This document shows positions 7,380 to 40,937 of a stretch of DNA of 43,067 bases, one piece after another (within the stretch, counting starts at the first letter, position 1; every line of letters begins with the position of its first letter). The DNA is from an uncultured Anaerofilum sp. (GTDB lineage: Bacteria; Bacillota; Clostridia; Oscillospirales; Ruminococcaceae). A program made the position numbers and the translations under genes. The notes below the pieces were generated by a model. That model was given only the letters and a program-made list of their open reading frames with translations, was not told the DNA's origin and made no database searches. The stretch is from assembly GCA_944385945.1 (NCBI GenBank), contig CALWZD010000002.1, forward strand, positions 1 to 43,067, written 5' to 3'.

Positions 7380-7421
7380 TCGGTTCACCTCATCTGGTAG
7401 TACATTTCTGGTTTATTTCAA

Positions 7422-8717: not shown

Positions 8718-8758
8718 TGTCAGTTCCCCCTTTTTTCTTGTCACAGACCAATCCACAG

Positions 8759-12272: not shown

Positions 12273-12320
12273 TGTATACACCTCACTGCATTTCTTTACA
12301 CAAACCCTGAAGACCGTCCA

Positions 12321-23136: not shown

Positions 23137-23153
23137 GCAAACCACCCTTATTT

Positions 23154-23915
23154 TTATTTACGAATACCTTCACGTACGGCTTTGAAAGCGGGATACTCTG
23201 CATATAGATAATTTGCGATGACTTCCATCAAGCGAAAATCTTCTTCCGAGTCGATGTCCAAAATACCGGTATCCATCATTTGAGAAACACCGATTTTTCC
23301 ATCCCACAAAATGCTGGTTTTGTTGGCTGCCAAAAAGTCACGTTGGAACACATAGATGCTTGCATTCAGGTCATAAATTTCGGGTGCCTGCTGACGGGCA
23401 GTGAAATTGCTGGAAAGCACTTTTTCCACATGGTCACCTACTGCTTTTACCATATTGAAATAGGGGTTGCGACGGGATTCGGTAACACTGAAAACCAGAT
23501 CCAAGTCAGGACGTTTTTCTTTCATTTCAAACGCATTCTGCACATCCTGCGCCGTACGCAGCGGGCTGGTAATATCCAAATCCATCACATAGTCGTACTT
23601 GCGATTCAGCTTTGCTTCCATCTCACGCAGACTTTGCTGGAACACCGCCATTTTCGGCACAGTGTCGCCACTGAGAGCTGCTTCACGCTGAATATAAGTG
23701 ACCTCGGGATATTTTGCTTTGACCAGTTCTACCAACAGGGCGGAGTCGGTATTCAAACAAATGTCGACCGCCACGTCGGGTCGTACCGCTTTAAACAGCA
23801 TCGCCGCAGAAAGAGTGTAGTAGACAAGTGGTTTTTCGCAGAATGTTTTTAAATTTTTGTTGCGGAAGCCTTTGCTGCCAGCCCGTCCGCATACAGTGAT
23901 CAGCAAACGTTTCAT
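23154..23915 (-). CDS. legF: CMP-nonulosonic acid (legionaminic/sialic) cytidylyltransferase
   Basis: The 253-residue enzyme activates a nine-carbon keto sugar acid with CTP in the cytoplasm. The N-terminal CGRAGSKGFRNKN is the CTP-binding signature of NeuA/LegF/PseF enzymes. YVMDLDITSPLRTAQDVQ supplies the metal-binding and sugar-contact region, and FSVTESRRNPYFNMV follows as in the family. It overlaps the preceding oxidoreductase gene by 4 bases (ATGA). The neighbouring genes (legB, legC, ptmE-like, legG, legI) favour legionaminic over N-acetylneuraminic acid. The sequence motifs alone do not separate these substrates. Confidence 0.88.
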   Translation of the reverse strand: MKRLLITVCGRAGSKGFRNKNLKTFCEKPLVYYTLSAAMLFKAVRPDVAVDICLNTDSALLVELVKAKYPEVTYIQREAALSGDTVPKMAVFQQSLREMEAKLNRKYDYVMDLDITSPLRTAQDVQNAFEMKEKRPDLDLVFSVTESRRNPYFNMVKAVGDHVEKVLSSNFTARQQAPEIYDLNASIYVFQRDFLAANKTSILWDGKIGVSQMMDTGILDIDSEEDFRLMEVIANYLYAEYPAFKAVREGIRK

Positions 23916-24847
23916 GGATTCGTTTCCCCCAGTGTCAATTTTAATACCGCCAATGCTTGCTCGGGCGGATTGATGCTTTCCCCTACACCGTACATACTAT
24001 ATTCCAAAAAGTATTCCATCTCTCGCTCATAGCGGCGATTTACCGGCTCGGTGTAATACTGCACTGTACCATCCGCCAAGGTCAAAGTACCCTCGCCAAA
24101 ATCAGCGGTCACAGTGCCGTCTTTGCAAAACAGTTCGATGCTACGGCGATAGCTGCGCCCGAAATAGTCCAAATGCACTTCGGCAAGCAAGGTCGGGTAA
24201 CGTGCAATATAAACCGAAAGGTCGTCTGAATCAATTTCGAGGTGTGAAAAGGTTCCTTTGAAGTTGAAGCACTCCAACGGCTCGCCGAATAAATCGACCA
24301 TATAATCCCACTCGTGGATGAGGTCGATGGTAACACCGCCCCCCATATCTTTATGGGCAGAATATACCTGTCGATAATCCACATTCGGACGCCAATCCGG
24401 CAAATAAGAAGAACAAATCACTCGCACCGAATAAGGATGCAGTTGCTCCATCTGCTTTTTCAGTGCCAAAAAGGTACCACACCAGCGCATGGGTGCTGCA
24501 ACGTATGCTTTTTGCCCATCCTTCAACACAAAGTCGGACAGTGCATATTCGGTGGAATCAAAGATCGGCTTTTCGATAAAAAAGCTGTGTACCTTTCCTT
24601 TCAGCCACCCCAACGCCTGTGCGTGTAAATGGGTGGGGTTGGTGATGAATGCCATATCCCATGTTTCCTGCTCCGGCAATTCGCAGAACTCGCCTTTCAG
24701 CAGTGCTTTCACATCCTCGGCAAGTTCTCTTTTTCCCGACCGCCATGCGTAGCATTCCAGTTCGATGCCCTTTTGCTCACACAAAGCAGTCAGATTGCGC
24801 AGGTGCCGTGTGCCGATACTTCCCAGCCCTACAAACAAAGCCCGCAT
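23912..24847 (-). CDS. Gfo/Idh/MocA-family oxidoreductase
   Basis: This 311-residue NAD(P)-dependent oxidoreductase has the Rossmann motif VGLGSIGTRHLRNL at the N-terminus. It then has ITNPTHLHAQALGWLKG and SFFIEKPIF, where the EKP motif carries the family lysine. The C-terminal domain includes LPDWRPNVDYRQVYSAHKDMGGG and the HEWDYMVDLFG region. Similar proteins often sit in nonulosonic acid loci, but the reaction is unknown; they may modify the sugar or a precursor. It begins immediately after the stop of the upstream paralogue (TAAATG) and overlaps legF by 4 bases. Both oxidoreductases share the LPDWxP...YR motif, indicating a tandem duplication. Confidence 0.85.
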   Translation of the reverse strand: MRALFVGLGSIGTRHLRNLTALCEQKGIELECYAWRSGKRELAEDVKALLKGEFCELPEQETWDMAFITNPTHLHAQALGWLKGKVHSFFIEKPIFDSTEYALSDFVLKDGQKAYVAAPMRWCGTFLALKKQMEQLHPYSVRVICSSYLPDWRPNVDYRQVYSAHKDMGGGVTIDLIHEWDYMVDLFGEPLECFNFKGTFSHLEIDSDDLSVYIARYPTLLAEVHLDYFGRSYRRSIELFCKDGTVTADFGEGTLTLADGTVQYYTEPVNRRYEREMEYFLEYSMYGVGESINPPEQALAVLKLTLGETNP

Positions 24848-25828
24848 TTACTCCGCCTCCTCGATCGCATCCATGATGGCAATGGCTTTCAGGTCTTGCT
24901 CAAAGCTATAACGGGGTGCTTGCTCTCCACGCAAAGCTGCAAGAAAGTTGGCCAGCTCGTCCACATATGCATTTTCGACGATGTTGTCGGAATAGCGACT
25001 GTCATGCTCGAAGGTCTGGTAGGTGTCCACTGCAACCTTTTCTTTTTTCTCGCTGTCATAGCGGTAAAGCGCCTTGGGGTTGCCCTCCCAGAACAGGTGC
25101 AGCCCTTCGCCAAACACCTCGAAATTGCGCACGGCTTTGGGGCTTACGACGTCCACTGCCAGCATTCCCTTTGCACCGCTTGCGTGGCGCAGTGTGACGA
25201 ATACGCTGTCCTCATAATCTACTTCCAACTCGCTGATTTTGTCCTTTTCCACATGGAAAGAGGTAACATCACCAAATGTGTCAATCAGCCATGGCAATTC
25301 GATGCCAAAAATCTCTCGCACACCGCCGGTTCGTTTATTTCCTACAAAGAAATTGCGGTAGTTTTCCCATGGATGCCAATCGGGCAGATATTGACCGATG
25401 TGATAAACGTAGTTTACTTTTTTGTCGAATGCTTTTACCTGACGGTTGATGTACTGGGTTTCGCCACGGTAGAGCATTGTGGAAGACAAAAACAAAAGCA
25501 GATTTTTTTCTTTTGCCAGTGCAATGCATTCTTCGTATCCGTCTTTTACCAAGTTCAGCTCGGTAAATACCGACAAACCCAGTTTCAGCAACTGTTGAAT
25601 GATAACTGCATGACTAAGCGGCGCAGTGCAGACCAACGCTGCATCGAATGTTTCACATTCACACGCCTCTTTGATGGACGAATAGGCAGTGATACCTAAG
25701 CTGGCTGCCTCTGCACGGCGAAATTCAGTGTTATCCACACCGGAAATTTGAATGGAAGGGTCGATCCCTTTCAGCAACCTTGCACGGCGTTTGCCCATGC
25801 TGCCTAAACCAACGATTAGAAGTTTCAT
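24848..25828 (-). CDS. Gfo/Idh/MocA-family oxidoreductase
   Basis: This 326-residue paralogue of the next gene has the nucleotide-binding motif IVGLGSMGKRRARLLKG at the N-terminus. Further motifs are ALVCTAPLSHAVIIQQL and VFTELNLVKDG, where the family EKP motif reads ELN; loss of that lysine is notable, because it normally helps catalysis. LPDWHPWENYRNFFVGNKRTGGV matches the partner. The ATG at 25828 is about 11 bases after AAGGAG; an in-frame GTG at 25837 is possible. It follows legG by 32 bases. The altered EKP motif suggests a different reaction or a partner role in a heteromer. Confidence 0.82.
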   Translation of the reverse strand: MKLLIVGLGSMGKRRARLLKGIDPSIQISGVDNTEFRRAEAASLGITAYSSIKEACECETFDAALVCTAPLSHAVIIQQLLKLGLSVFTELNLVKDGYEECIALAKEKNLLLFLSSTMLYRGETQYINRQVKAFDKKVNYVYHIGQYLPDWHPWENYRNFFVGNKRTGGVREIFGIELPWLIDTFGDVTSFHVEKDKISELEVDYEDSVFVTLRHASGAKGMLAVDVVSPKAVRNFEVFGEGLHLFWEGNPKALYRYDSEKKEKVAVDTYQTFEHDSRYSDNIVENAYVDELANFLAALRGEQAPRYSFEQDLKAIAIMDAIEEAE

Positions 25829-25860
25829 TTTATTCACGGCTCCTTTTCAAGCTTGCTGTT

Positions 25861-27030
25861 TTAAATCGCATCGTAAAACCCCTTTGGCTGTAAAAAGCGG
25901 GGGTCGAACAAAGCTTTTTCCAATACATCGCACATTTTTTGTGCCGTGTCACCGCCATTATAAGGGCTTACGGTCGCAGCGGCAGCTTGTACAAAGGCAG
26001 GGCTACCTGCCGTTTGCATCGCCCGCAAAATCTCGTACTGCTCCGCTTGGCAGCACAGCACATTTTGGCAGATGATGCGTCCTTTTTGTCGATCTCCGAT
26101 ATTCACCGTGGGAACGCCGAAGGTCGGTGTTTCCACCACGCCGGAAGAAGAATTGCCCACCACCATAGCAGCGTGGCTCATTGCAGACAAATACCGTACC
26201 ACACCCAAACTAGAGAATGCAACGGCATTTTCATGAGTTGCACACCATTCGTCGATGCAGCGATTGATCTGCTCACCGCCTGCATCTGCATTCGCTTTTG
26301 TAATCAGCCATTGCAGCTGTGGCATTTGCTCCATTGCCCACAAAAGCTGCTGCATCTGCTCGAGAGGCTTTGCATCGGCGGTCGTTTCGGGGTGGAAAGT
26401 GACCAGCGCAAAACCTTTTTCTTTGAGCGGAAATCCAATGCTTTCGCTCAGCTGTTCCAACGACATACGGGGAAGCTTGCGGATGTTTTCATCTCCCAAT
26501 CCCCCCACGTTGAACACTCTCCACGGTTCTTCTCCCATACGGATGACCCGTTGGGCATACTGTTCGCAGGACGGAAAATGAATGCTTGCCATCTTGGTCA
26601 GGCAGTGGCGGAACCACTCGTCCGCCGCCCCCAGAGTGACATCTCCACCGCTGATATGCACCAGTGGGATATGCAGCATTGCTGCCGCCGAGCCGACCGC
26701 AAACATTTCGTATCGGTCGCCCAGAACCATGCAGGCATCCGGCTTGATTTGGTCGAACAGAGAAGAAAAACATTGGATGGTATAGGCAACCGTTTGTGCT
26801 GTTTGCAGCGTACCGTTGCCAAATTTCAGGATGTCGACACGGTGTGTAATGGGAATACCATCTTTTTCAATCTCCTGTACTGTATTTCCGTACAAATCAC
26901 TTAAATGTGCGCCTGTAACAATTACTTCGGGTGTGATATACTCACTTTTTAACAGCGTTTGTATCACTCGGCGCAGCAAACCATACTCTGCACGGGTCGC
27001 AGTTACCACTGCCAGCCGCTTTTTTTCCAT
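25861..27030 (-). CDS. legG: Hydrolysing UDP/GDP-N-acetyl-sugar 2-epimerase (LegG/NeuC-like)
   Basis: The 389-residue enzyme belongs to the hydrolysing 2-epimerase family and releases a free ManNAc-type sugar for condensation. Motifs are AVVTATRAEYGLLRRV, VTGAHLSDLYGNTV, MVLGDRYEMFAVGSAAAMLHIPLVHISGGDVTLGAADE and GNSSSGVVETPTFGVPTVNIGDRQ, the last being the C-terminal nucleotide-binding block. I choose the ATG at 27030, six bases after AGAGGTG, over the GTG at 27039. It directly follows legI. In the legionaminic route the substrate would be the 2,4-diacetamido-trideoxy sugar; a plain UDP-GlcNAc NeuC role is the alternative. Confidence 0.88.
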   Translation of the reverse strand: MEKKRLAVVTATRAEYGLLRRVIQTLLKSEYITPEVIVTGAHLSDLYGNTVQEIEKDGIPITHRVDILKFGNGTLQTAQTVAYTIQCFSSLFDQIKPDACMVLGDRYEMFAVGSAAAMLHIPLVHISGGDVTLGAADEWFRHCLTKMASIHFPSCEQYAQRVIRMGEEPWRVFNVGGLGDENIRKLPRMSLEQLSESIGFPLKEKGFALVTFHPETTADAKPLEQMQQLLWAMEQMPQLQWLITKANADAGGEQINRCIDEWCATHENAVAFSSLGVVRYLSAMSHAAMVVGNSSSGVVETPTFGVPTVNIGDRQKGRIICQNVLCCQAEQYEILRAMQTAGSPAFVQAAAATVSPYNGGDTAQKMCDVLEKALFDPRFLQPKGFYDAI

Positions 27031-27051
27031 CTCGTTCACCTCTGCGCTGAT

Positions 27052-28047
27052 TTACAGCTCGATTTTTTCATCCTCGGCAAAGTCACGCTTTGCCACACAG
27101 CCCAGCACATCGTACCACTTCATTGGACTGATACCATCGCCCGGACGTTTGGTCGTCAGATTTTCCGCAGTAAACTGCTCACCTTTTGCAATGGGACGTG
27201 CTGCCACGATGCTTTTGCGGGCGATGGGCTTGTTTTTTGCCTCGCTTGCCGACACCTCTTTTTTACCGCTGCCCAGTGCTTTTTCGATGTTGCGCACCGC
27301 CTGTACCATGGCTTTCAGCTCGTTCGGCTCCAAACTTGCCTGATGGTCGGGGCCTTCCATCGTCTTATCCAATGTAAAGTGCTTTTCGATGACGGTAGCC
27401 CCCAGCGCAGCCGCAGCAATATCGCACTCGATGCCCAGCGTATGGTCGGAAAAACCAACTTCGCAGCCGGTCAAGTTTGCAAGATCTGCCATTGCCGTCA
27501 GGTTAGCATCCTCATAGGGAGTGGGATACTCGGTGTTACAATGCAAAATGGTCACCTTAGGGCAACCGCCTTTTTTCAGCACTTCCACTGCCTGCAAAAT
27601 CTCGTCGGGGACGCTCATACCGGTAGACAACACCACAGGCTTTTTCAAAGAAGCGATTTTTTCCAGATAAGGCAAATTGGTGATCTCGCCCGACGGGACT
27701 TTATAAAACGGAGGGTCCATGCTTTCCAAAAAGTCGATACTGGGCAGGTCGAACGGCGTGGAAAGGTATGCGATTCCAATGGAATCGCAATATTCTTTCA
27801 GTTCCCGATGCTGCTCGAACCCAAAATGGATCTTTTTCACCATCTCCAGTTGGCTTTCCTGTTCGCCGGTCTGCTGCTTTTGGTAATCCGCTTTTTCGGC
27901 AAATTTCGAAATGACCAGTTCCGGCACAGCGGTTTGGTATTTTACGATGTCGGCACCTGCCTCTTTTGCAGCCATTGCCAGCTGCTTTGCCAGTTCCAAG
28001 CTACCGTTATGGTTCACACCTGCTTCGGCAATAATTAAAATGCTCAT
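27052..28047 (-). CDS. legI: N-acylneuraminate/legionaminate synthase
   Basis: The 331-residue enzyme condenses phosphoenolpyruvate with a six-carbon N-acetyl-mannose-type sugar to give a nonulosonic acid. The NeuB barrel (about 1-270) begins IIAEAGVNHNGSLELAKQLA. It contains FSDHTLGIECDIAAAALGATVIEKHFTLD, with conserved metal-binding and active-site residues, and SVPDEILQAV. The C-terminal SAF/antifreeze-like domain (about 270-331) has RKSIVAARPIAKGEQFTAENL. A strong AAGGAG site precedes the ATG. It lies between the ptmE-like nucleotidyltransferase and legG, which favours legionaminic acid as product. Confidence 0.92.
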   Translation of the reverse strand: MSILIIAEAGVNHNGSLELAKQLAMAAKEAGADIVKYQTAVPELVISKFAEKADYQKQQTGEQESQLEMVKKIHFGFEQHRELKEYCDSIGIAYLSTPFDLPSIDFLESMDPPFYKVPSGEITNLPYLEKIASLKKPVVLSTGMSVPDEILQAVEVLKKGGCPKVTILHCNTEYPTPYEDANLTAMADLANLTGCEVGFSDHTLGIECDIAAAALGATVIEKHFTLDKTMEGPDHQASLEPNELKAMVQAVRNIEKALGSGKKEVSASEAKNKPIARKSIVAARPIAKGEQFTAENLTTKRPGDGISPMKWYDVLGCVAKRDFAEDEKIEL

Positions 28048-28074
28048 ACAAATCGCTCCTTATTTGATTCGGGG

Positions 28075-29118
28075 TTAATTTTGCTCTAACCTACGGCGCA
28101 TATTGTCCAGTTCTTCCAACTGTCCCATATCCATCCAGCTCTGCTCGCTGACGGGGTATACCCCTGCCCGTCCGCCATGTTCACGCACACGATCGATGAG
28201 GTCGGTAAAAGGGGTCGGGGTATCGGGCTCGATGAGGTCGATGACCTGCGGTTCTACTACATACACGCCGGTATTGGTCAAAAAGTTCATCGCCGGTTTT
28301 TCCTGCATCTGGCTGATTTGACCATCGTCCGAAAGATTCACCACACCGTAAGGAATGGTAAAATGCTTTACGGCACACACCATCGTGATCCAGTTTTTGC
28401 TTTTTTTGTGGAACTCGTAAACGTCGCCAAAATCGGCATCAATCAAAATATCGCAGTTGGTCAGAAAGAAAGTCTGGTGCAGCTTGCCTTGCAACAGCGA
28501 CAGCCCACCGCCTGTGCCAAGCGGCTTGTCTTCGTCAACATACTCCACATGATATTCCTTTTCCAAATCGTTGAAATAGGATTTTATCATGTTTTTCTTG
28601 TAATTGACCACCAGCCAAAAGTTACTGCATCCCACATCTCGAAAGCGGTTGATGATATGCTCTGCAATGGGGACGTCGCCAACAGGGATGAGTGGTTTGG
28701 GGAGGATCTTTGTATAAGGATACAGCCGTGTGCCCAAACCACCTGCCATCATTACCACAGGCAGATCTGCCTGCTTGCGTGTGTCGATGTCCAGCCCATC
28801 TGCAAACAACACATCTTGAATGCGTCCGTTTTTGTCTAACAACGGCAATGCTTTGATGCACTCATCCAGCATTTTTTGCTTTGCCTGCGCACGGTGTTCC
28901 ACCAAAAGCCAGCGTGGATTTCGGTTGACAGCTCCTCCTACTGGCTCCTCCAGCTTTCTGCCCGAAAGGACGTAACGGCGGATGTCACCATCGGTGAGGA
29001 CTCCTTTCAGCACTCCGTCCGGTGCTTCGAACAATACTCCCAGCCCTGTTTCGTCCAGCTGGCGCATCGAATCCAACACACTTTGTGTCGGATCGAGCAA
29101 AATGTCTTCTATTCTCAT
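28075..29118 (-). CDS. ptmE: CBS-domain nucleotidyltransferase (PtmE-like sugar-1-phosphate guanylyltransferase)
   Basis: The 347-residue protein has two N-terminal CBS domains (about 1-115) and a C-terminal nucleotidyltransferase domain (about 117-347). The latter has VVMMAGGLGTRLYPYTKILPKPLIPVGD, the pyrophosphorylase signature with the catalytic Arg and Lys, then LLTNCDILIDADFGD-like TNCDILIDADF. This fusion is known in Campylobacter PtmE, which makes GDP-glucosamine for legionaminic acid synthesis; that assignment is by architecture and context. CBS domains often bind nucleotides and regulate the attached enzyme. It lies between legC and legI with gaps of 24 and 27 bases. Confidence 0.85.
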   Translation of the reverse strand: MRIEDILLDPTQSVLDSMRQLDETGLGVLFEAPDGVLKGVLTDGDIRRYVLSGRKLEEPVGGAVNRNPRWLLVEHRAQAKQKMLDECIKALPLLDKNGRIQDVLFADGLDIDTRKQADLPVVMMAGGLGTRLYPYTKILPKPLIPVGDVPIAEHIINRFRDVGCSNFWLVVNYKKNMIKSYFNDLEKEYHVEYVDEDKPLGTGGGLSLLQGKLHQTFFLTNCDILIDADFGDVYEFHKKSKNWITMVCAVKHFTIPYGVVNLSDDGQISQMQEKPAMNFLTNTGVYVVEPQVIDLIEPDTPTPFTDLIDRVREHGGRAGVYPVSEQSWMDMGQLEELDNMRRRLEQN

Positions 29119-29142
29119 TCTCCACCGTTTCCTTTCGTCGTT

Positions 29143-30309
29143 TTACAGGCTCAACAGGGTATCGACCACCCGCTGTGCGTCCTCTTTTGTCAGGTTTGTG
29201 GAGCATGGCAGGTTTACGATACGATTCAGATAATAATATGCCAATTCATCGCCGTAGCGTTCGTTTTTGTCATAATCAGCCTGATCTTGAATCAAAGCCC
29301 AAATCGGACGGGTCTGGATCTTTTCCTTTTGCAATGCTTGAATGATCTCATCACGGCTCAGCGGATGCTCGTCTTCTACGAGCAAGCTGTAAAACCAGTG
29401 ATTGCTGCGTGTACCCTCACGGAATGGCAGGATACGGTAATGGTTCTTTCCGTTCAAAGCATTGAAATAGAAGTTGTACATTTCGATTTTGTGCTGGATA
29501 AAACCTTCTAACTGCTCCATCTGTGCCACACCAAGGGCAGCTTGCAGATTGGTCAAACGATAGTTGTAGCCAACCTCGTCGTGCTTATAGTTCAGTTCGT
29601 CACTTTTCGCCTGTGTGGACAGATGTTTTGCGTGTTCCGCCCATTCCGGATGGTTGGAAACCACCATACCGCCCGAACCTGTCGTAATGATTTTATTTCC
29701 GTTAAAGCTGTAAACGCCTACATCGCCGATGGTTCCTGCAAATTTGCCTGCATATACACCCTCGGTGTAATAGGTACCCAATGCCTCGGTAGAGTCTTCG
29801 ATAACGATCAGATTCCACTGCTTTGCGATCTGCATCAATGCCGGCATATCTGCCAGATTTCCAAACACGTGTACAACTACCATTGCTTTGATCCATGCGC
29901 TGGTACTTTTGTTGATGCACTTACCGTCTTTCAGCTCTGCATGGCTTTGCAGATACTCACTCACCCGTTCGGGACTGATGCACAGGCTGTCATCGCAACC
30001 GATAAAAATGGGCTGCGCACCGGCATATCGAATGGGATTGACCGCTGCAATAAAGGTCAAAGTCGGTGCCAATACCTCGTGTCCTGCACCGACACCTGCC
30101 ATCATCATGGCAAGATGCAGCCCAGAACTGCCACTGTTGCAGGCCACTGCACGGTCAGTTTTGACATAATCGGCAATCAACTGCTCGAACTTAGGCACAA
30201 GGCTGCCACCGGTGGACACCCATTCGCTTACCACTGCATCATTTACGTACTCTTTTTCTTTGCCCGAAAAGTTGGGCACTGAAAGAGGGATAAAGTTTTT
30301 TTCTTCCAT
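29143..30309 (-). CDS. legC: PLP-dependent sugar aminotransferase (DegT/DnrJ/EryC1; LegC-like)
   Basis: The 388-residue enzyme should aminate the 4-keto group of the nucleotide-sugar made by the dehydratase LegB. Motifs are EWVSTGGSLVPKFEQLIADY and SGSSGLHLAMMMAGV (phosphate binding), VHVFGN, IEDSTEALG (aspartate pairing with the PLP ring) and YSFNGNKIITTGSGGMVV with the Schiff-base lysine at about 206. The ATG overlaps the TAA of the upstream membrane protein gene (TAATG). LegC is normally next to legB; here five membrane-protein genes lie between them. Confidence 0.9.
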   Translation of the reverse strand: MEEKNFIPLSVPNFSGKEKEYVNDAVVSEWVSTGGSLVPKFEQLIADYVKTDRAVACNSGSSGLHLAMMMAGVGAGHEVLAPTLTFIAAVNPIRYAGAQPIFIGCDDSLCISPERVSEYLQSHAELKDGKCINKSTSAWIKAMVVVHVFGNLADMPALMQIAKQWNLIVIEDSTEALGTYYTEGVYAGKFAGTIGDVGVYSFNGNKIITTGSGGMVVSNHPEWAEHAKHLSTQAKSDELNYKHDEVGYNYRLTNLQAALGVAQMEQLEGFIQHKIEMYNFYFNALNGKNHYRILPFREGTRSNHWFYSLLVEDEHPLSRDEIIQALQKEKIQTRPIWALIQDQADYDKNERYGDELAYYYLNRIVNLPCSTNLTKEDAQRVVDTLLSL

Positions 30310-30956
30310 TATTCACAACTTCCTTTCCCTTTATTGACTTGACTTTTTACATTCTCAAAGATGTGCAAAAGATATTTCAAAATCGCTGCACTTAGCGCAG
30401 GAATCACTGCCAAACGGAATAGACCGTTCAAGCTAATGTCCAGATACCGTTCCGGACCGGTTTGTGTATTGAAACGAATCTCCTCGATCGTGATGCCCAA
30501 ATTTTCGGCACTGCCCGGGTCGATGCGCAAAACAGAAATTTTTGTTCGAGGCAATGTGTACAGGTAACTTCCATCCGGCTGTTGTACTGCCCACACACGG
30601 CGATATTTATCAAACGTTTCATCGGCATTCTGTGTGTAGTACAAATCCAACTCGCCCGGATTGGCATCAAACTGCATCTTGATAGAAACATTGGAGAGAT
30701 ACCCGTCCACAACATACAAAAGCTGTGGGTCAGCCGTTGTACTGCGCCAGCTATTTTCTGTTTCGGCGATGAGGTTCTGCATTTGAAAGCTGAAAACCGA
30801 AACTTCTTTCTCGCTCAACTGCCCCTGCACCTTCAAAAACGAATCCTGTACAAAGCCGACCAATGCCGCAGCCAACACACACACCACATATACACTATAA
30901 CACAAAACCAACAGGTGGCTGCGCCATTTTTGAAAAAAAAGATGATTTTTTTTCAT
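30309..30956 (-). CDS. Small membrane-anchored beta-domain protein (partner module, copy 2)
   Basis: The 215-residue protein has an N-terminal membrane segment (about 16-39), an extracytoplasmic beta-rich domain and a C-terminal membrane segment (about 178-200). It is homologous to the 207-residue protein at 32993-33616: both have a [ST/SD]DPQ segment, GELDLYYTQN versus GAVVLYYRTP, and VLRIDPGSAENLGITIEEIRF versus IRIDPASNGGVILELEQLRL. The ATG at 30956 overlaps the stop of the large membrane protein gene (ATGA), and I prefer it over the in-frame start at 30989. Function unknown; it probably works with the protein encoded directly upstream. Confidence 0.82.
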   Translation of the reverse strand: MKKNHLFFQKWRSHLLVLCYSVYVVCVLAAALVGFVQDSFLKVQGQLSEKEVSVFSFQMQNLIAETENSWRSTTADPQLLYVVDGYLSNVSIKMQFDANPGELDLYYTQNADETFDKYRRVWAVQQPDGSYLYTLPRTKISVLRIDPGSAENLGITIEEIRFNTQTGPERYLDISLNGLFRLAVIPALSAAILKYLLHIFENVKSQVNKGKGSCE

Positions 30957-32989
30957 TCTACATCCTCCATAGGCACCGCCGTCATCCATGCCAGCCCATC
31001 CTTTTGCTGAATTTTATATAGGGCAGGCTGCTCGTTCGCACTTTCCAGTGCATCGTCAAATAGCTGTGCGTAACTTTGTACAAAAATATCATCACATTGC
31101 TCGATGTACATATAGTCGCACTCATTTTCCAACAAATAGGAAGAAAGCTGTTCCGGTGTGTACGGATGATAATACAAGTCGCCGTTAGCAAGCTCTTGCA
31201 AGCCGAACGTACCGCCCATTCCTCCCGACCAGCCTTTTTCTTCGTCCACCGAACCACTTGGGTCGGTGATAAGGGGAAGCAGATTGTAGGATTGGCGGAA
31301 CCAATTCTCGCCGTTATCTCCCTGATACACATAAAAGATGCGGGCATCGCTTTCTACGGCATTCACAACTGCCTGCGCATTGTTTTCGCTTTTTTTCACC
31401 TGATCGAAATATGGCTCCGGATAGCCCATGATCGTAAACTGTGGCATCAGCAAGGAAGTGAATCTCCACAACATGACCCCTGCTGCAACCAATACTGTCA
31501 GCTCCTGCAATCTCCATCTGCCACTCGGCCGCTTTTGACACCGTGCCAGCAAAGACAGCGCAACAAAAAACGCAAACAGCAGATAGGGGTAGATGTAGCG
31601 ATTGTAGCTGTCCAGCGATTGCGCCTGAAAATCTTTGAAGATAAATACATAGCTGAACAAAATCACGATATAATACGCAAAAAAGCCTGCAATCGTAGCC
31701 ACAGCCAACACTATATGACGCAAACGCTCCCGTTTTGGGCAAAAAATAGCTGCGACCACAAAAATTCCACCAATGAAAATCAGTGCTGTTAAGCTGGGAC
31801 CTGCCATCGTGATGGAAACCTTGAAAAAAGCACTCCACATATCCGCCGATACCTGTGCGAACTTCTCACCATAGGTTTGAACGATCTCGGCAGGTGCAGA
31901 TGACCGAAACAGCAAAAGGAAAATACCATTTTTCAGCACATCACCCAGTGCCATATTTGTGGTACCCATTCCGCCCTGCTGCGCCCGAAGCTGAACGGCT
32001 GCAGCTGCATGGAAGCTCCACATCATATATGCTGCGCCGATACAAGCAACACACACGGCACAAAAAGCAGCCCGTTTGCCGTACCGAATCGCAAAGCGTT
32101 CCTCCTGTTCAGTAGGCAAACCAAAAAAGAAGCAATCCAACGCTATCAATCCAAATGCGACGAGTGCAATGGGCAGCGTATTGTCTTTCACATACATGGA
32201 AGCCGTCAGCACAATGGGAACGACCCATACGCCCTTTTGTTTGCCTGATTTCAGGCACATCCAACATACGACCGCACCGCCTGCCAAAATTCCTGCCGGA
32301 ATATCACCGTAGGCATCCATGTAGACAGGACGCATGGTAGTTTCACGTTGATACACTGTAAAAAACCACGGAGATAAAAACGCTGCTAAGGAAAGCGGAA
32401 TCCATGCATTCCATTCTTTCGCTTCAAAAATGCCGATTACCGCACTGAAGCAAGCGAAGAACAGAATATCATATGCCAAATACAACTTCCACGCCGCAAA
32501 TCCACTGCCAAAAAACTGCATGAAATATCCTAATACGATCATGCCGGGCTTTTGGGTCGCTGTCCACTCCCAAATTTGAGATAACTCACTGACGGTGTAA
32601 AGCGTGTTGTCCAGTTTGGTGATTTTTGCAGCAGTCCCCCAAAACGAGGTTTCGTCCCACACCGAAAACACCGGCTGACGTACAGCCAAATATACCATGA
32701 ACACCAAACTCAGCCCCACAAACACACAAAAAGACGGGGTGAACAAGGTGATTTTTTTTCGTTTGAACGCATCTACTGCGGCAACGATGCCCAGCACAAA
32801 TGCAATGGCATAGAAGCCCCACCCCATAGGAAGCAATAGCCCTGCACATCCTGCCACGCTGAACCACATCATCGTGATGCTGACCGTTGCCAACGGTGCC
32901 ACACCTGCACACACATTCCATTTTTGATTCAGGAAAAAGCAGATTGCGACCAACGCCACAAATGCAATTCCAACATCCAAAACCTGCAT
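30953..32989 (-). CDS. Polytopic membrane protein, GT-C-like, WDE motif (copy 2)
   Basis: The 678-residue protein has about 12 membrane helices, a first large loop containing VRQPVFSVWDETSFWGTAAK (Asp112, Glu113), and a soluble C-terminal domain of about 160 residues. An acidic D-E pair in the first external loop is typical of GT-C glycosyltransferases that use polyprenyl-phosphate sugars, but family membership is inferred. It is a paralogue of the protein at 33613-35598, with WDE at the same residue numbers (111-113). It starts 3 bases after the small partner gene and overlaps the next small gene by 4 bases, so the four form coupled pairs. Confidence 0.85.
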   Translation of the reverse strand: MQVLDVGIAFVALVAICFFLNQKWNVCAGVAPLATVSITMMWFSVAGCAGLLLPMGWGFYAIAFVLGIVAAVDAFKRKKITLFTPSFCVFVGLSLVFMVYLAVRQPVFSVWDETSFWGTAAKITKLDNTLYTVSELSQIWEWTATQKPGMIVLGYFMQFFGSGFAAWKLYLAYDILFFACFSAVIGIFEAKEWNAWIPLSLAAFLSPWFFTVYQRETTMRPVYMDAYGDIPAGILAGGAVVCWMCLKSGKQKGVWVVPIVLTASMYVKDNTLPIALVAFGLIALDCFFFGLPTEQEERFAIRYGKRAAFCAVCVACIGAAYMMWSFHAAAAVQLRAQQGGMGTTNMALGDVLKNGIFLLLFRSSAPAEIVQTYGEKFAQVSADMWSAFFKVSITMAGPSLTALIFIGGIFVVAAIFCPKRERLRHIVLAVATIAGFFAYYIVILFSYVFIFKDFQAQSLDSYNRYIYPYLLFAFFVALSLLARCQKRPSGRWRLQELTVLVAAGVMLWRFTSLLMPQFTIMGYPEPYFDQVKKSENNAQAVVNAVESDARIFYVYQGDNGENWFRQSYNLLPLITDPSGSVDEEKGWSGGMGGTFGLQELANGDLYYHPYTPEQLSSYLLENECDYMYIEQCDDIFVQSYAQLFDDALESANEQPALYKIQQKDGLAWMTAVPMEDVE

Positions 32990-32992
32990 TTT

Positions 32993-33616
32993 TTACTCCT
33001 TCAGCTTATTTTTAGGGAACTTTATCCCCCGAAAAACCTTCCAGATTGCCACTGTGATCGGAGGTATGCCCAATAATAGCGCAGCCTGCTGAAAGTTTGG
33101 CAAAATTTTCCATTCACTTCCTGCACTCAAGCGCAGTTGCTCCAGTTCCAAGATAACACCGCCGTTGCTTGCGGGGTCGATGCGTATCTCCTCCACGACC
33201 TTTCCGCCCAGATCAAAGCGATAGGTCTCCTGTTCGGTGATTTGAGCATACACCATTTGGCGAGGCAAAAAATCCGGTTGCTCCGGTGTACGATAGTATA
33301 AAACCACCGCACCCGTAGGCCAAAGCGTTTTCATTTTCAGCTCTACCGTATCCAAATATTTTCCACCGCAATACCAGCGGATCTGCGGGTCGGAATCACT
33401 GGACACCAGCCAATTTCCCTGACCGATCTCTTGGATGGGTTTCTGCTCTACAAGCGAGATCAACTGTAATTCTTCCAGAGGTACCAGTTGGTTTCCAATC
33501 GCTCCTTGCATCGTATACCACACAACCTGTAAGCTGGAGGCGATAAACAATGCAATCCAAATGGCAACCGCCAAAAGATATGCCATCCACAAAGGTCGTT
33601 TATACCAATTTTTCAT
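32993..33616 (-). CDS. Small membrane-anchored beta-domain protein (partner module, copy 1)
   Basis: The 207-residue protein has a membrane segment near the N-terminus (about 10-36), a beta-rich domain with SDSDPQIRWYCGGKYLDTVEL and VEEIRIDPASNGGVILELE, and a C-terminal membrane segment (about 178-197). It resembles the 215-residue protein at 30309-30956 throughout. Its ATG overlaps the stop codon of the 661-residue membrane protein (ATGA). The topology places the domain outside the cytoplasm. I recognise no named family; a role as accessory subunit of the adjacent GT-C-like protein is inferred from coupling and duplication. Confidence 0.82.
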   Translation of the reverse strand: MKNWYKRPLWMAYLLAVAIWIALFIASSLQVVWYTMQGAIGNQLVPLEELQLISLVEQKPIQEIGQGNWLVSSDSDPQIRWYCGGKYLDTVELKMKTLWPTGAVVLYYRTPEQPDFLPRQMVYAQITEQETYRFDLGGKVVEEIRIDPASNGGVILELEQLRLSAGSEWKILPNFQQAALLLGIPPITVAIWKVFRGIKFPKNKLKE

Positions 33617-35598
33617 TGCACCGCCTCCAAATCAATCGGCTGGAACTGTGGTGTATCTTGCTGCCATACGATTCGATAAAGAGCGATTTGGGTCAGCCCG
33701 CTGTTGCTCATTTCTCCGTCGGTATACGGCTGAAGCAGTTGTTTTGTGTAATCATCCGCACGGTCTACCAGCAGAACTGTGGCACCACTGTCTTTGATAT
33801 AAGCCAATAAATCTTTTTGCTCGGTCAGAACTCCGTAATTCTGGTTCCCTAAATTGCTTTCTTCCGTCAACGTCGCAGCCGTTGTGGGCCAATACGGATT
33901 TTCCTCGCTACCATCACCGCCTCCATACATTTTCAGCAGCTGGCTTTGCAACTCATAGCCGTAATAATACCACCTTGTTCCATCGTTGCCTTGAATGATC
34001 GGATATATTTTTTCGTCTTTTTCCAGTATACCGTTTACCACATCTGCACGTTGCTGTACTTGCAGCCGTTCTTGGTAAAAGCTGTACGATGCACTCATAA
34101 AATTGTTTACCGTCTGTCCACGCAAAGCAAATGCACCTGCAATCAACCCAAAGCAAACCACAGCACACACTTCACTTTGCCACTTTCTGCAGTTTGCCAT
34201 CGCCAACAGAACAAGTGCCCCCAGCATCCATCCGAAATAATACTCCATAAAATAGCGTGGGTAGTCTTTCAGTTCGCTGCCTTCCATTGCACGGAACACG
34301 TACAGATACAAAAACCAGTGGAATATCCAAAACGCAGCAAAACCGGCACTGCTGCACACAGCATACAGCACTACTCTGCGCTTATGTTGCGTATCGCCAC
34401 ACAAAAAGGCTGCCAACAGAATGAGAGCAATGATAACGGTCACTATAAGCCCGCTGCCCAACAAACAAACAGTGCGCCCAAAGTACGCCTGAAGCATCGT
34501 TTTGCCCATTGACGAAAATTGCTCCGTTCGCTCGATGCCAAGAAGTTCCTGCACTCCTCGCACCATCATCTCGGTCATGCCCAGTGCCTGACTGTCGCCG
34601 TCGTTGCCAAGATCGAACCGATTTTCGCCCGACACCATCCCAATGTACTTGGACCAGCCAAACCAACCTGCTACCACTACCGCAGCCGACACAGCAAACA
34701 CGGTTCCCGAAACAGCAAGCCGCTTTTGTATTTTCTGTTGGTTGCCGATGAACAACAAGTCCATTGCAATCACCCCTGCTGCAATCAGCCCCAACGCCAT
34801 TCCCATATCTTTTATCAAAGACAAAACAGCAAACAGAAGTACAAGCTGCACAAAATTGGCTGGATTCTTTTTGCCACGGAAGTAGACCGCTAAAATGGCA
34901 CCGAACAATGCACCGAGAATCAAGTCTGCCTGCAAATTCAACAGCACGGTCGACGCCACACCGCTTGCAGCACCTACTTCAAAGAAAAACGGCAAAAAGA
35001 CGGCTACACCAAGCAATAATACATTTTTAATGTTGTCTGTTTCTTCTTCACCGCAAATCGTGCAGACACAAGCCAATACAAAAACTGCATAGGCGAAATA
35101 TCCAACCCATTCAGAAAAAGAACCTGCCAGCAACTGAAACATATTGACCAATAACGGCAGTGCCGGCGGATATGCCGTCGTCACCATGTTGCTCTCAACA
35201 GTCGGATAAAGAGCCTTATTTTCAAACGTCACCTTTGCGGCACTTCCCCAAAAGGTGAATTCATCCCACTGGTAGAACATCGGCTGACGCACAGCAAACA
35301 CCGCCAGCAAAAACAAACTGCCCACAAAAAAGAGGCGCACTCCACTGCAACGGAACAGGGCAAGCGACTGTTTTTTTTGTACCGCCACCTGCCACACGAA
35401 GGCAACAATGCCTGCAACGACCCAGACGATTCCGCCGATCCGCAAAATCCCCGCTATGCCTGTGGCGGTCAGCCAAACGATTCCGGCCCCCAGTACGGTA
35501 AGCGGTGCCGTTTGGGTCGAAATGTCGGTATAACGCCGTAATACAAGCGAAAATCCGCACCCCCCCAGCAATAGCAGCAATGCAGACAGTATTGTCAT
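33613..35598 (-). CDS. Polytopic membrane protein, GT-C-like, WDE motif (copy 1)
   Basis: The 661-residue protein has about 12 helices. The first external loop reads VRQPMFYQWDEFTFWGSAAK (Asp112, Glu113), almost identical to the paralogue at 30953-32989. A C-terminal soluble domain (about 490-660) has GNDGTRWYYYGYEL, parallel to GDNGENWFRQSYNL in the paralogue. The likely start is the ATG at 35598 with AAGGAG 11 bases upstream; earlier in-frame codons overlap that site. It follows the DUF2142 gene by 36 bases and is coupled to the small partner gene. Probably a lipid-linked sugar transferase or glycan polymerase, unproven. Confidence 0.85.
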   Translation of the reverse strand: MTILSALLLLLGGCGFSLVLRRYTDISTQTAPLTVLGAGIVWLTATGIAGILRIGGIVWVVAGIVAFVWQVAVQKKQSLALFRCSGVRLFFVGSLFLLAVFAVRQPMFYQWDEFTFWGSAAKVTFENKALYPTVESNMVTTAYPPALPLLVNMFQLLAGSFSEWVGYFAYAVFVLACVCTICGEEETDNIKNVLLLGVAVFLPFFFEVGAASGVASTVLLNLQADLILGALFGAILAVYFRGKKNPANFVQLVLLFAVLSLIKDMGMALGLIAAGVIAMDLLFIGNQQKIQKRLAVSGTVFAVSAAVVVAGWFGWSKYIGMVSGENRFDLGNDGDSQALGMTEMMVRGVQELLGIERTEQFSSMGKTMLQAYFGRTVCLLGSGLIVTVIIALILLAAFLCGDTQHKRRVVLYAVCSSAGFAAFWIFHWFLYLYVFRAMEGSELKDYPRYFMEYYFGWMLGALVLLAMANCRKWQSEVCAVVCFGLIAGAFALRGQTVNNFMSASYSFYQERLQVQQRADVVNGILEKDEKIYPIIQGNDGTRWYYYGYELQSQLLKMYGGGDGSEENPYWPTTAATLTEESNLGNQNYGVLTEQKDLLAYIKDSGATVLLVDRADDYTKQLLQPYTDGEMSNSGLTQIALYRIVWQQDTPQFQPIDLEAVQ

Positions 35599-35634: not shown

Positions 35635-37302
35635 TTATACAGGCATATTGTAGACCGGACCGATAAAATAGTGTTGCGCTAACAAAATACCGCTAAGCAT
35701 CGCACCTGCACTGCAGGTCCACAAGCCCAGTTTTGTGGCTTTATCGGTTTGTGCCAGTTTGGGTTCCAGCACATGGCTGAGCAAGCCTGCCAAAAGAACC
35801 AACAGCATCAAAAACGGCGGAAGCATATATCTTGCCTGTACTCCCAGCACACGTACCATTCCTACCGGCGTATAAGTGATATACAATGCTGCCATGACCG
35901 CTGCGATGTAACACACCGCCAACACACCAAGCCCGATTGCCGAACGCAATGACAAACTGCTTTTTTCGTGTACTGCCAAAGCGGTCGCCAGAAACAACAT
36001 TACAACGGATACCAACTGCACCATGGGTATCTCCAGATCCAAAGCCCCAAAAATTCCCAGCTGCCCAAAATACAGCGTATTTTCGTATAGCGTCCCCAAA
36101 AATACAGCGATTGTTCGAGGAATATTTTGCAACATAAAGGCCAGTTGCTGTCCGCCGTTTACTACTTCCGTTCCCAGCATCCTTCCGATTTCGGGATAAT
36201 TCACCCGCATCGCCGTTCCGTACCATTCTACAAAAAGCGTGATGGAAATTGCCCCTGCAATCGCCGCCAGTGCTACCTGCCATTTTTTCGCTTTCACTTT
36301 CCACGCCTTTTGGGGCAGAACCAAAGGCAACAGCAGCCACAGCAAGCTGATCCAAGGCTTGACTGCATTCATCAGCACAAATGAAACAAAAAACACCTGT
36401 ACATCTTTTTTCCGAATCTCATCCGCACAATAATAGCTTGCAGTAAGATAATACAATCCCAACAGCAAGCTGTCGTAGCTAAGGGATGCTGCCAGATACA
36501 AACTTAACGGCAGTAGCATCACCGCTGCAAAAATCGTTTGGTAACGTTTGCAATTACGCAAAGCAAACCAGCACAGTACCGTATATACTGCAAGGTTTGC
36601 CAGCCTTCCCAAATACATACATCCCAATGCCTGCAACCCTATCAGTCGGGCTACGAACATTCCCACAGCCTGTGGTAAAAACGGAATGATTTGAAACATG
36701 ATCGGCTCATTCACGCTTTCAAGTGCCGTATTCTTGAGATCCTGATATGCCTTGAATTGGTTAGATAACGAAATCAGTTCATTTCCCTGCAATCGAAGCG
36801 GAAAATTGGCACTGCTGCCTGTCCCGGTCAGTTCACCGGTTTTTTCATCTACCTCTACCCAATAGGTCGTATGCGCATTGGTCCACGCTCCGGGAAACGC
36901 ACTCAAAAGTGCCGCAACATCATTGGGATATGTGCGGTCGTGATCGAAGTTCAACCAGCCTTTGCTGATAGAATAGCTGCGCAGATAATGTACCGACTCA
37001 TCCGGTGCCTGCAACGGTGGATTGGCAAAACAAAAAACAATACCGCACACTGCGATGGCAATGGCTGCTTTTGTTGGAAATGTTTTTACATAACGCACAG
37101 TAAGCAAAACGACCACATACACCGCCGTTGCTGCCAAACAGCACAGAGCGGTCAATTTCAATGCAGAGCCGGTATAGCCATAGAATACACGCCAATAATA
37201 CACCATTGCAACCATGCACAGCTGCAACGCAAGATAGCCCGCCGTTTGATAAACGGCAGGCTTTTTGCAAAAAACTTTTATTTTCTGCAAGGTCTTTTCC
37301 AT
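35635..37302 (-). CDS. DUF2142 polytopic membrane protein
   Basis: The 555-residue protein has about 12 membrane helices. The early loop NPPLQAPDESVHYLRSYSISKG carries the DUF2142 signature (PPDExxHxxR-like), which again places acidic residues in the first external loop as in GT-C enzymes. DUF2142 proteins usually occur in polysaccharide loci and are thought to handle lipid-linked sugars. I prefer the ATG at 37302, preceded by GAGG, to the GTG at 37314, which overlaps the end of legB. It directly follows legB and precedes the first WDE module. The substrate is unknown. Confidence 0.88.
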   Translation of the reverse strand: MEKTLQKIKVFCKKPAVYQTAGYLALQLCMVAMVYYWRVFYGYTGSALKLTALCCLAATAVYVVVLLTVRYVKTFPTKAAIAIAVCGIVFCFANPPLQAPDESVHYLRSYSISKGWLNFDHDRTYPNDVAALLSAFPGAWTNAHTTYWVEVDEKTGELTGTGSSANFPLRLQGNELISLSNQFKAYQDLKNTALESVNEPIMFQIIPFLPQAVGMFVARLIGLQALGCMYLGRLANLAVYTVLCWFALRNCKRYQTIFAAVMLLPLSLYLAASLSYDSLLLGLYYLTASYYCADEIRKKDVQVFFVSFVLMNAVKPWISLLWLLLPLVLPQKAWKVKAKKWQVALAAIAGAISITLFVEWYGTAMRVNYPEIGRMLGTEVVNGGQQLAFMLQNIPRTIAVFLGTLYENTLYFGQLGIFGALDLEIPMVQLVSVVMLFLATALAVHEKSSLSLRSAIGLGVLAVCYIAAVMAALYITYTPVGMVRVLGVQARYMLPPFLMLLVLLAGLLSHVLEPKLAQTDKATKLGLWTCSAGAMLSGILLAQHYFIGPVYNMPV

Positions 37303-37310
37303 GGCAGACC

Positions 37311-38294
37311 TCACAGATTGTAGATGTCGACTTTATAGCGATCCATGTTTTGACGAACCCATTCGATTGTTTCCGCCAACCCTTGTTCAAAGGTATACTG
37401 CGGTTTCCAACCGGTCAGCTCACGCAACTTTGCTGCGCTGCCCAGCAAACGGTTCACTTCGCTTTTTTCGGGACGCAAACGCTCGGCATCAGTGGTGATT
37501 TTTGCGTTCGGGTTGATCTGGCGGATGAGTTCTTCTGCCAGCTGTCCAATGCTGATCTCCTGTTCGGTCGCAATATTCAGCTCCTGTCCAATCGCCTGCT
37601 CGCAGCCTGCAATGGTAATGAATCCATTTGCAGTGTCCTTTACATAGTTGAAATCACGAGTAGGTGTCAGGCTGCCCAGGTGGATCTCCTCTTTGCCTGC
37701 CAACAACTGTGTGATGATGGTAGGGATAACTGCTCTTGCACTTTGGCGAGGACCATATGTGTTGAAGGGACGCACGATGGTGACAGGCAAATTAAAACTG
37801 CGCCAAAAGCTTTCTGCCAAACGGTCGGCACCGATTTTGGTAGCAGAATACGGGCTTTGCCCCTGATACGGATGCTTTTCGTCGATAGGAACATACTGCG
37901 CCGTGCCGTATACCTCGCTGGTGGATGTAACCAACAACCGCTTAGTGTTTACCTGACGGGCAGCATTCAGCACATTCAGCGTACCTTTGATATTGGTATC
38001 GACATAACTATCGGGGCTATGGTAACTGAAAGGAATCGCAATCAGTGCGGCTAAATGGTACACGATGTCCTGCCCTTCCATAGCAGTACGCACACCATTG
38101 GGATCTCGGATGTCACCCATAAACACTTCGATCTCGTTTTTAATCTCAGGTGCAAGTGTATCCAGCCAGCCCCACGTACCAAACGAGTTATAGTAACAAA
38201 AAGCCTTTACCTTTTCGCCACGCTTGACCAATTCTTCGGTGAGATGGCTTCCAATAAAACCATCTGCACCTGTTACCAGAACTGTATTTGCCAT
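37311..38294 (-). CDS. legB: NAD-dependent nucleotide-sugar 4,6-dehydratase (LegB-like)
   Basis: The 327-residue short-chain dehydrogenase/reductase family enzyme starts with VLVTGADGFIGSHLTEELVKRG (NAD binding). It then has VYHLAALIAIPFSYHSPDSYVDTNIKGTLN, SEVYGTA and the catalytic Tyr/Lys in SPYSATKIGADRLAE. The LAALIAIPFSYHSP stretch is characteristic of LegB-type GDP/UDP-GlcNAc 4,6-dehydratases. It should make the 4-keto-6-deoxy intermediate for LegC. A strong AAGGGAG site precedes the ATG. It is first in the long operon behind the promoter at 38360-38388. Confidence 0.9.
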   Translation of the reverse strand: MANTVLVTGADGFIGSHLTEELVKRGEKVKAFCYYNSFGTWGWLDTLAPEIKNEIEVFMGDIRDPNGVRTAMEGQDIVYHLAALIAIPFSYHSPDSYVDTNIKGTLNVLNAARQVNTKRLLVTSTSEVYGTAQYVPIDEKHPYQGQSPYSATKIGADRLAESFWRSFNLPVTIVRPFNTYGPRQSARAVIPTIITQLLAGKEEIHLGSLTPTRDFNYVKDTANGFITIAGCEQAIGQELNIATEQEISIGQLAEELIRQINPNAKITTDAERLRPEKSEVNRLLGSAAKLRELTGWKPQYTFEQGLAETIEWVRQNMDRYKVDIYNL

Positions 38295-40346: not shown

Positions 40347-40931
40347 TTAATACTTTCCCATTTCGCTTATGGTGTCGACTTCTGTTTGTACCGGTTCAGA
40401 GTACGAAAACACTTCCTCCACGTCTTCTCCCAGCTTAAATTGTGCAATTTGTTGACGCATCACATTTGCCTGCCCGGACAGCTGCTGGCTGGCTGCGGCA
40501 CTTTGCTCTGCTGTTGCGGAGTTGGTCTGTACCACTTCAGAAATCTGGCTTACCCCTTCAGAAATTTCCGAAAGCTTGTTTGCCTGTTCATGGTATACGC
40601 TTGCCACCGCTTCGACCGTTTCTACCACCTGTTTGGTTCTGTCGGCTACTACTCCCAAGGAATCCGCCGTCAGCTTGGTCAGCTTATCCCCGTATTCCAC
40701 TGCACGAGAAGAATTTTCAATCAGTTCGTTGGTCTTTTTCGCTGCTTCAGCACTTTTGCCAGCCAAGTTCCGTACCTCGGCCGCTACCACAGCAAAACCT
40801 TTCCCCGCAACGCCTGCCCGTGCTGCCTCTACGGCTGCATTCAGCGCAAGGATATTGGTTTGGAATGCGATGTCGTCAATGGTTTTAATGATGCCCTTGA
40901 TAGCAGCGGATTGAACGCTGATGTCTTCCAT
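40347..40931 (-). pseudogene. 3' part of interrupted chemoreceptor gene (signalling tip)
   Basis: This 194-residue frame begins 9 bases after the TGA that ends the frame at 40938-42440 and is in the same reading frame. It carries the tip of the signalling domain ([37 protein letters not shown]) and the returning coiled-coil arm, ending in EMGKY. No good ribosome binding site precedes the ATG at 40931, so it is probably not translated by itself. Except for the stop codon, it joins the upstream frame without gap or shift. It is best read as the end of one receptor gene spanning 40347-42440 (697 codons before the final stop). Confidence 0.8.
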
Positions 40932-40937
40932 CGCTTC

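Follow-up and report, generated by a model that had tools for sequence, protein, structure and literature searches.

Glycosyltransferases of the GT-C superfamily take their sugar from a polyprenyl-linked donor and use an acidic pair in an external loop for catalysis; how such membrane enzymes choose their acceptors has, to our knowledge, been established in detail for only a few of them, EmbC being one. In that GT-C enzyme, as far as the relevant passages of PMC3044687 go, an extracytoplasmic lectin-like carbohydrate-binding module (CBM) binds acceptor analogues, and mutation of the CBM inhibits chain extension. The protein O-mannosyltransferases are GT-C enzymes with a luminal MIR domain, described as a putative CBM, in cis (PMC7759382, in part), and the Wzm/Wzt O-antigen exporters likewise place a carbohydrate-binding module on a glycan membrane machine (PMC11127046, in part). 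In Lactococcus, a section of PMC12599335 describes WpsI, a GT-C-like putative polymerase, beside WpsH, a partner with a large outer loop between two transmembrane (TM) segments. Here, we describe a related arrangement in a 43,067-nucleotide stretch (the window; contig CALWZD010000002.1 of assembly GCA_944385945.1, from an uncultured Anaerofilum sp.), where a large polytopic membrane protein, L, and a small membrane protein, S, are encoded as a pair that occurs twice in tandem. In our preferred reading, to which we assign a probability of roughly 0.6, the L–S pair is an extracytoplasmic GT-C transferase with a separate acceptor-binding subunit, building a legionaminate-linked surface glycan.

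Compared with these systems, the locus shares with EmbC the combination of a GT-C enzyme and an outside CBM, and EmbC may be taken as a precedent in cis for an acceptor-binding module on a GT-C transferase; in the passages cited, however, the EmbC CBM lies in cis at the C-terminus, whereas S is a separate membrane protein with two helices. The MIR domain of the O-mannosyltransferases is a beta-trefoil in cis, whereas S is modeled as a jelly roll in trans. WpsI/WpsH is the closest described arrangement, alike in gene layout and in the topology of S and WpsH (compared with WpsH by description only); WpsI is a DUF2142 protein, whereas L is not, and tandem duplication does not figure in the passages on Wps. 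According to part of PMC13390465, the names WpsH and WpsI have also been applied to unrelated proteins.

The four genes are arranged in the order L1-S1-L2-S2 (Table 1), and the sequence-only reading of this DNA, which had proposed a tandemly duplicated two-gene module, was correct in its coordinates, protein lengths and homologies. L1 and L2 share 26% identity over 685 columns when aligned end to end (BLASTP E = 1e-53; local score 520, whereas 200 shuffles reached at most 76), and S1 and S2 share 24% identity over 212 columns (BLASTP E = 2e-13; local score 134, against a shuffle maximum of 63). The WDE motif starts at residue 111 in both L1 and L2, giving the Asp-Glu pair the same numbering, D112-E113, as had been claimed, and the ATGA overlap of large and small gene was found in both copies. 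As the start codons of S1 and S2 each lie within an ATGA that overlaps the stop of the preceding L, with GGAGG seven bases 5' of the ATG in both, the arrangement suggests that L and S are translationally coupled. The exact ATGA overlap varies among relatives, the S start lying a few bases past the L stop in several loci.

Table 1 Coordinates of the L–S block and of flanking genes in the window (aa, amino acids)
Feature	Position	Strand	Description
LegB-type 4,6-dehydratase	37311-38294	(-)	upstream end of cassette in 16/17 loci
DUF2142 membrane protein (PF09913)	35635-37314	(-)	559 aa, no S-type module detected
L1	33613-35598	(-)	661 aa, polytopic glycosyltransferase of predicted GT-C fold
S1	32993-33616	(-)	207 aa, TM + predicted jelly-roll beta domain + TM
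L2	30953-32989	(-)	678 aa, L1 paralogue in its own old clade
S2	30309-30956	(-)	215 aa, S1 paralogue, L2 partner; 226 aa from upstream ATG at 30989
LegC-family aminotransferase	29143-30309	(-)	directly downstream of S2; downstream in 7/17 loci
CBS + nucleotidyltransferase protein	28075-29118	(-)	context
NeuB-type nonulosonate synthase	27052-28047	(-)	context
NeuC-type 2-epimerase	25861-27039	(-)	context

The predicted model of L1 (predicted local distance difference test, pLDDT, 87.4; predicted TM-score, pTM, 0.90) was compared with the PDB using Foldseek. Ranks 1 to 12 were all GT-C enzymes, namely ArnT, AftA, catalytic subunits of oligosaccharyltransferase, DPY19 (a C-mannosyltransferase) and Pmt4, with E values from 1.2e-4 (ArnT) to 4e-2 and the first three below 1e-3; among the remaining listed ranks a second Pmt4 appeared at 17, and the others were unrelated proteins with probabilities of 0.16 or less. 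These twelve leading matches agree with the earlier proposal of a GT-C-type sugar transferase, and we consider L, on the modeled structure, to be a GT-C glycosyltransferase by fold class, with no close relative claimed. In an alignment of 34 L sequences (A1), which leaves out the two L of locus L025 with their long insertions, D112 and E113 are invariant in 34/34, and K263 and R448 are also among the invariant columns. Because the loop preceding the helix that runs into WDE is basic (mean 3.5 K/R vs 0.6 D/E) and the C-terminal domain (about 525–661 in L1) is acidic (mean 7.6 K/R vs 22.9 D/E), the WDE loop and this domain are predicted, by charge alone, to face outside. Like ArnT, AftA, PMT and STT3, L has this fold and, in a loop predicted to be external, an acidic pair; it differs in having no Pfam match to a GT-C family and, in the L1 model, four membrane-length helices ahead of the motif loop, where ArnT-type enzymes have one. 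The insertions in L025 (2050-7573) affect both of its L genes, which encode 817 and 793 aa compared with about 670.

The model of S1 (pLDDT 90.3) consists of a helix (8–36), a beta domain (about 43–164) and a second helix (175–197), matching the description of the small partner as two membrane anchors around a beta domain. At E values up to 1e-3 it matched 25 PDB chains, mostly CBM86, CBM6, CBM29 and CBM32 and including an O-GlcNAc hydrolase; S is therefore best described, at the level of predicted models, as a jelly roll flanked by two membrane helices and closest to carbohydrate-binding modules. Since the tails of S are net positive (N-tail in 36/36, C-tail in 31/36), the jelly roll is predicted to lie outside, with both termini inside, and the suggestion of an external accessory domain is thereby supported by model and tail charge. 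Six positions are invariant in the 36 S (M1, D76, L136, R145, D147 and P148). The modeled fold classes of S and L are firmer than any inference about ligands, and sugar binding by S would be such an inference.

In sequence searches, neither L1 and L2 nor S1 and S2 could be assigned to a family in Pfam (E up to 1) or NCBIfam, the stray Pfam matches lying far under the curated cut-offs; the earlier remark that the small partner has no named family thus stands for these two databases. No match was found between L and the PMT_2, ArnT or STT3 sequence families in Pfam and NCBIfam, or, at E up to 1, between L and PF09913 (DUF2142), which the neighboring protein does match. The 34 aligned L and the 36 S, searched against Pfam, gave no family that more than two members matched and no E value below 0.0058; S matched no CBM family and no Wzz family. 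Compared by sequence with PDB chains, the L profile gave no GT-C match, only a flagellin chain at E = 0.9, and the S profile gave nothing at E up to 1.

To follow the pair across genomes, two surveys were made. With L1 as query, 18 loci were found in named genomes, 17 of them from Oscillospiraceae/Ruminococcaceae (Anaerofilum, Gemmiger, Subdoligranulum, Fournierella, Faecalibacterium and unnamed members); the other, L026 from Rickettsiaceae, aligns over 276 residues, has no S and was excluded from all counts. The 17 loci contain 34 L and 34 S, with an S after every L, arranged as two pairs in 15 loci, one pair in L017 (where the contig ends just after it) and three in L024. Among 247 genomes of the family, 44 have a match to L and 39 to the S profile, and an S lies within 600 nucleotides downstream on the same strand for 72 of the 87 strong L matches. 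Conversely, 73 of 77 S matches adjoin an L; the four others comprise both halves of a single fusion (G434), another fusion (G603) and one contig-end fragment, so that this fragment is the only free-standing S without an L. The pair had been proposed to form an obligate two-component enzyme, and here the sample speaks against it on the side of L: eight L in six genomes have no S (G404, G406, G428, G432, G483 and three in G510), and G489 and G627 contain L-L-S runs with a single S, leaving the first L of each run unpaired. A further L without S in G520 belongs to a genome that is 75% complete and has no S match, the contig ending inside the gene, and the last four are found in G413, G446 and G627, three of them partial profile matches and the fourth in G413. 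Frequent occurrence of either gene alone, which had been named as evidence against the pair, is thus seen in part for L and not for free-standing S; obligate pairing fails for L and holds for free-standing S as far as sampled. Beyond the family, the S profile matched only the window's own genome among 391 genomes of the class and gave one further match among 398 genomes of the phylum, inside a 1135-aa protein. The L profile has distant matches in 10 other genomes of the class, and in 11 regions from these genomes S gave no match at E values up to 5.

In the L tree (50 rows, midpoint root drawn; the two L of L025 and the L rows of L100 and L109 left out, that of L100 and one of L109 being cut by contig ends), L1 and L2 separate into two old clades, with support of 89 and 98 (99 for each core), and eight lone L group together in a third clade that lies outside these two. 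The S tree (41 rows) splits into S1 and S2 in the same way, with a Shimodaira–Hasegawa-like approximate likelihood ratio test (SH-aLRT) support of 88, below star level. L1 goes with S1 and L2 with S2 in 37 of 38 pairs, the exception being G489, where one S serves an L-L run; this agreement makes it probable that L and S were duplicated together, ahead of the divergence of these genera. The idea of an old, co-inherited pair is therefore supported by the survey and by both trees, and a recent local duplication is ruled out, both L1/L2 and S1/S2 being old clades. In L019 and L024 the deeper L/S pairing within the locus is not a clean mirror. L024 (7917-16456) carries three tandem L-S pairs, and the S adjoining one L is similar to the partner of a different L, as though one pair had been placed within an older one.

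The genes on either side of the block constitute a legionaminic-acid type set (Table 1), the window flanks also holding a cytidylyltransferase-family protein, a GNAT protein and two Gfo/Idh oxidoreductases; this set (22333-30309 and 37311-38294) is split by DUF2142-L1-S1-L2-S2. When about 8 kb of flank was read around the named loci, the order LegB-DUF2142-L1-S1-L2-S2 recurred in 16/17 as far as the flanks reach, with the first pair only in L017 and an extra pair in L024. Nine flank open reading frames from five Gemmiger-/Subdoligranulum-type loci had no Pfam family in common. In a comparison of 64 genomes, consisting of the 44 L-positive ones and 20 L-negative ones taken, not at random, from the 203 without a match, and uncorrected for relatedness, DUF2142 was present in 44/44 L-positive and 0/20 L-negative genomes, and NeuB (E < 1e-60) in 42/44 and 2/20, respectively; both are associations with L. 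DUF2142 lies directly upstream of an L in 39 of the 44, and NeuB within 12 kb of L in 31. In L009 and L010, LegB is 95% identical to that of the window and L1 only 47–59% in the same loci, and the transferases thus change much faster than the sugar pathway.

The DUF2142 neighbors provide a second setting for S. DUF2142 is a membrane family adjacent to L, and some of its members carry an S-like module at the N-terminus, whereas L has no PF09913 match; DUF2142 proteins also occur in Streptococcus thermophilus polysaccharide loci, according to part of PMC9746298. The module gave a significant hidden Markov model (HMM) match in G603 (E = 1e-5), and a profile built from five other fused modules aligned with the S profile at 97.2% hhalign probability over 185 columns (97.1% over 129 columns when repeated with alignment A3). 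Upstream of paired L, the DUF2142 proteins have 550–574 aa and no S-HMM match (16/16 loci and the window). A complete module-bearing DUF2142 stands directly upstream of the lone L in G404, G406 and G432, and another upstream of the L that is cut by the contig end in G520, these four having 685–720 aa. Because these four DUF2142 proteins carry the module and those upstream of paired L gave no match to it, a swap of cis for trans is suggested: wherever a DUF2142-L pair stands without a free S, the module is on the DUF2142 neighbor. In G428 the module is on a DUF2142 about 16 kb from L, and in G483 the DUF2142 is cut by the contig end. These genomes also encode, at other sites, a second class of long DUF2142 proteins (L112 and L114-L130; 647–852 aa), whose N-terminal extension is of another kind. 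Tried as a relative of S, the extension of these non-adjacent paralogues was rejected (hhalign 3.3% vs S and 23.7% vs the fused modules; 18 rows, with L113, which is in the fused set, and L131, which has an unreadable run, left out).

Two further proteins carry S-like domains. In G434, an ABC-2 permease (L090 5801-7501) begins with two tandem S-like beta domains, and its neighbors are genes for a 244-aa ABC ATPase, an RmlD-family protein, a dehydratase and a nucleotidyltransferase; it is a possible exporter with a glycan-binding part on the permease, differing from Wzm/Wzt, for which the source passages place the CBM on the ATPase. In G753, from another bacterial family, the 1135-aa hydrophobic protein mentioned above (L133 3355-6762), which has no Pfam family, contains a partial S match near the C-terminus (E = 1.4e-4; hhalign 93.7% over 66 columns), a layout similar to that of EmbC.

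Our preferred reading, the transferase with a separate acceptor-binding subunit, draws on what the computations returned for both folds, the charge topology, the pairing, the co-duplication, the modules in cis and the co-occurrence with DUF2142 and NeuB. L would take its sugar from a polyprenyl-linked donor, with the D112-E113 loop on the outer face serving for catalysis. S would be anchored in the same membrane by its two helices, with its CBM-like jelly roll on the same outer face as the L loop, where it would most likely hold or read the glycan acceptor for L. L1S1 and L2S2, together with the adjacent GT-C-like DUF2142 protein, would extend, polymerise or attach a surface glycan made with the legionaminic-acid type pathway whose genes surround them. 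What we infer is that L and S touch, that S binds sugar, which donor and acceptor are used and what each copy does. A more far-reaching and distinctly tentative idea is that exchangeable lectin subunits set the acceptor of a GT-C enzyme: S1 and S2 might give L1 and L2 different acceptors, DUF2142-L1S1-L2S2 might form a stepwise assembly line on the outer face, and the S module might be mobile, having moved between trans (free S) and cis (DUF2142, the 1135-aa protein, the ABC exporter).

Several results weigh against the acceptor-binding subunit. The TM-scores of L1 to the twelve GT-C chains are modest (0.22–0.48, with root mean square deviations of 8–14 Å), which is why the claim for L is limited to fold class, and those of S1 to stand-alone CBMs are 0.29–0.60, with deviations for the most part close to 5 Å or higher. 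Among the L matches no fusion of an L with an S gene was found, the largest open frame being 826 aa. The two surveys overlap, several assemblies being common to both. NeuB is absent from two L-positive genomes, is missing from the 12 kb around L in 13 of the 44, and, when weak and strong family matches are taken together, is present in 14 of the 20 L-negative genomes. Four of the five fused DUF2142 modules match the S HMM weakly (E = 0.26–2.2) and the fifth, in G520, not at all up to E = 5; their apparent kinship with S rests on the profile comparison.

The strongest rival, which we nevertheless hold to be rather doubtful, makes S a polymerase regulator, that is, a WpsH-like chain-length control protein or co-polymerase, and L a Wzy-like polymerase of GT-C fold. 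A TM-external domain-TM protein beside a GT-C polymerase is what PMC12599335 describes, in the section cited, for WpsH and the DUF2142 protein WpsI, and passages of PMC10821137 name the pair as polymerase and putative chain-length regulator, but assign WpsH and WpsI both ways round. S has no match to Wzz-type families and is modeled as a CBM-like jelly roll, and an S-like module is also found on an ABC-2 permease, where polymerase chain-length control has no obvious need. A Wzz-type regulator recognizable by sequence was rejected, S having no such match in the Pfam scans.

An unlikely alternative is that S only folds or anchors L, its jelly roll being a protein-protein scaffold that binds no sugar. 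There is no invariant tryptophan across the 36 S, whose invariant residues may be structural, and galactose-binding-like jelly rolls also bind protein or lipid, with discoidin-type C2 domains, among them factor V C2, and neuropilin b1 in the S1 match list; CBM families nonetheless lead the fold search, and the membrane proteins that carry the module elsewhere look as if they handle glycans.

At 7422-8756 the window encodes a 444-aa protein matching PF01973 (MptE-like), which we take to be the former Maf flagellin family, and flagellin genes lie elsewhere in the genome (C49, C72). That the L/S module acts with this Maf-like protein to glycosylate flagellin or other proteins of motility is highly improbable, for although the PF01973 protein, the flagellin in this genome and the use of legionaminate as a known flagellin sugar would fit, flagellin does not track L (14/44 L-positive vs 9/20 L-negative genomes) and is absent from the near-complete L-positive genomes G605 (one contig, 99% complete) and G409 (two contigs, 98%), which rules out a flagellin-specific function. 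Elsewhere in the window lie a 1160-aa protein with two separate family-2 glycosyltransferase stretches (8799-12281), a 1027-aa protein that combines a GH25 lysozyme domain with a choline-binding-type repeat and is encoded near a response regulator/histidine kinase pair (4305-7388), and two adjacent frames (194 and 500 aa) resembling one chemotaxis receptor in two pieces (40347-42440).

Beyond the sequence-only reading, the analysis adds the CBM-type fold of S, the S-like modules in cis, the legionaminic-acid type locus and DUF2142 as a third GT-C-like protein. Literature searches combining GT-C with CBM or accessory subunit, and Gemmiger with legionaminic, found no paper, and searches under the genus names found none on such a sialic-acid-like surface glycan; for Faecalibacterium prausnitzii HTF-F, part of a 2025 review (PMC12413058) mentions a capsule of unknown composition. 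With the CBM-like part separate, duplicated, and held in trans or in cis in related genomes, acceptor choice by a membrane GT-C enzyme would become testable through a subunit of 200 residues, and the locus would offer a genetic entry point to a sialic-acid-like glycan on the surface of Gemmiger, Fournierella, Anaerofilum and Faecalibacterium-related commensals of the gut.

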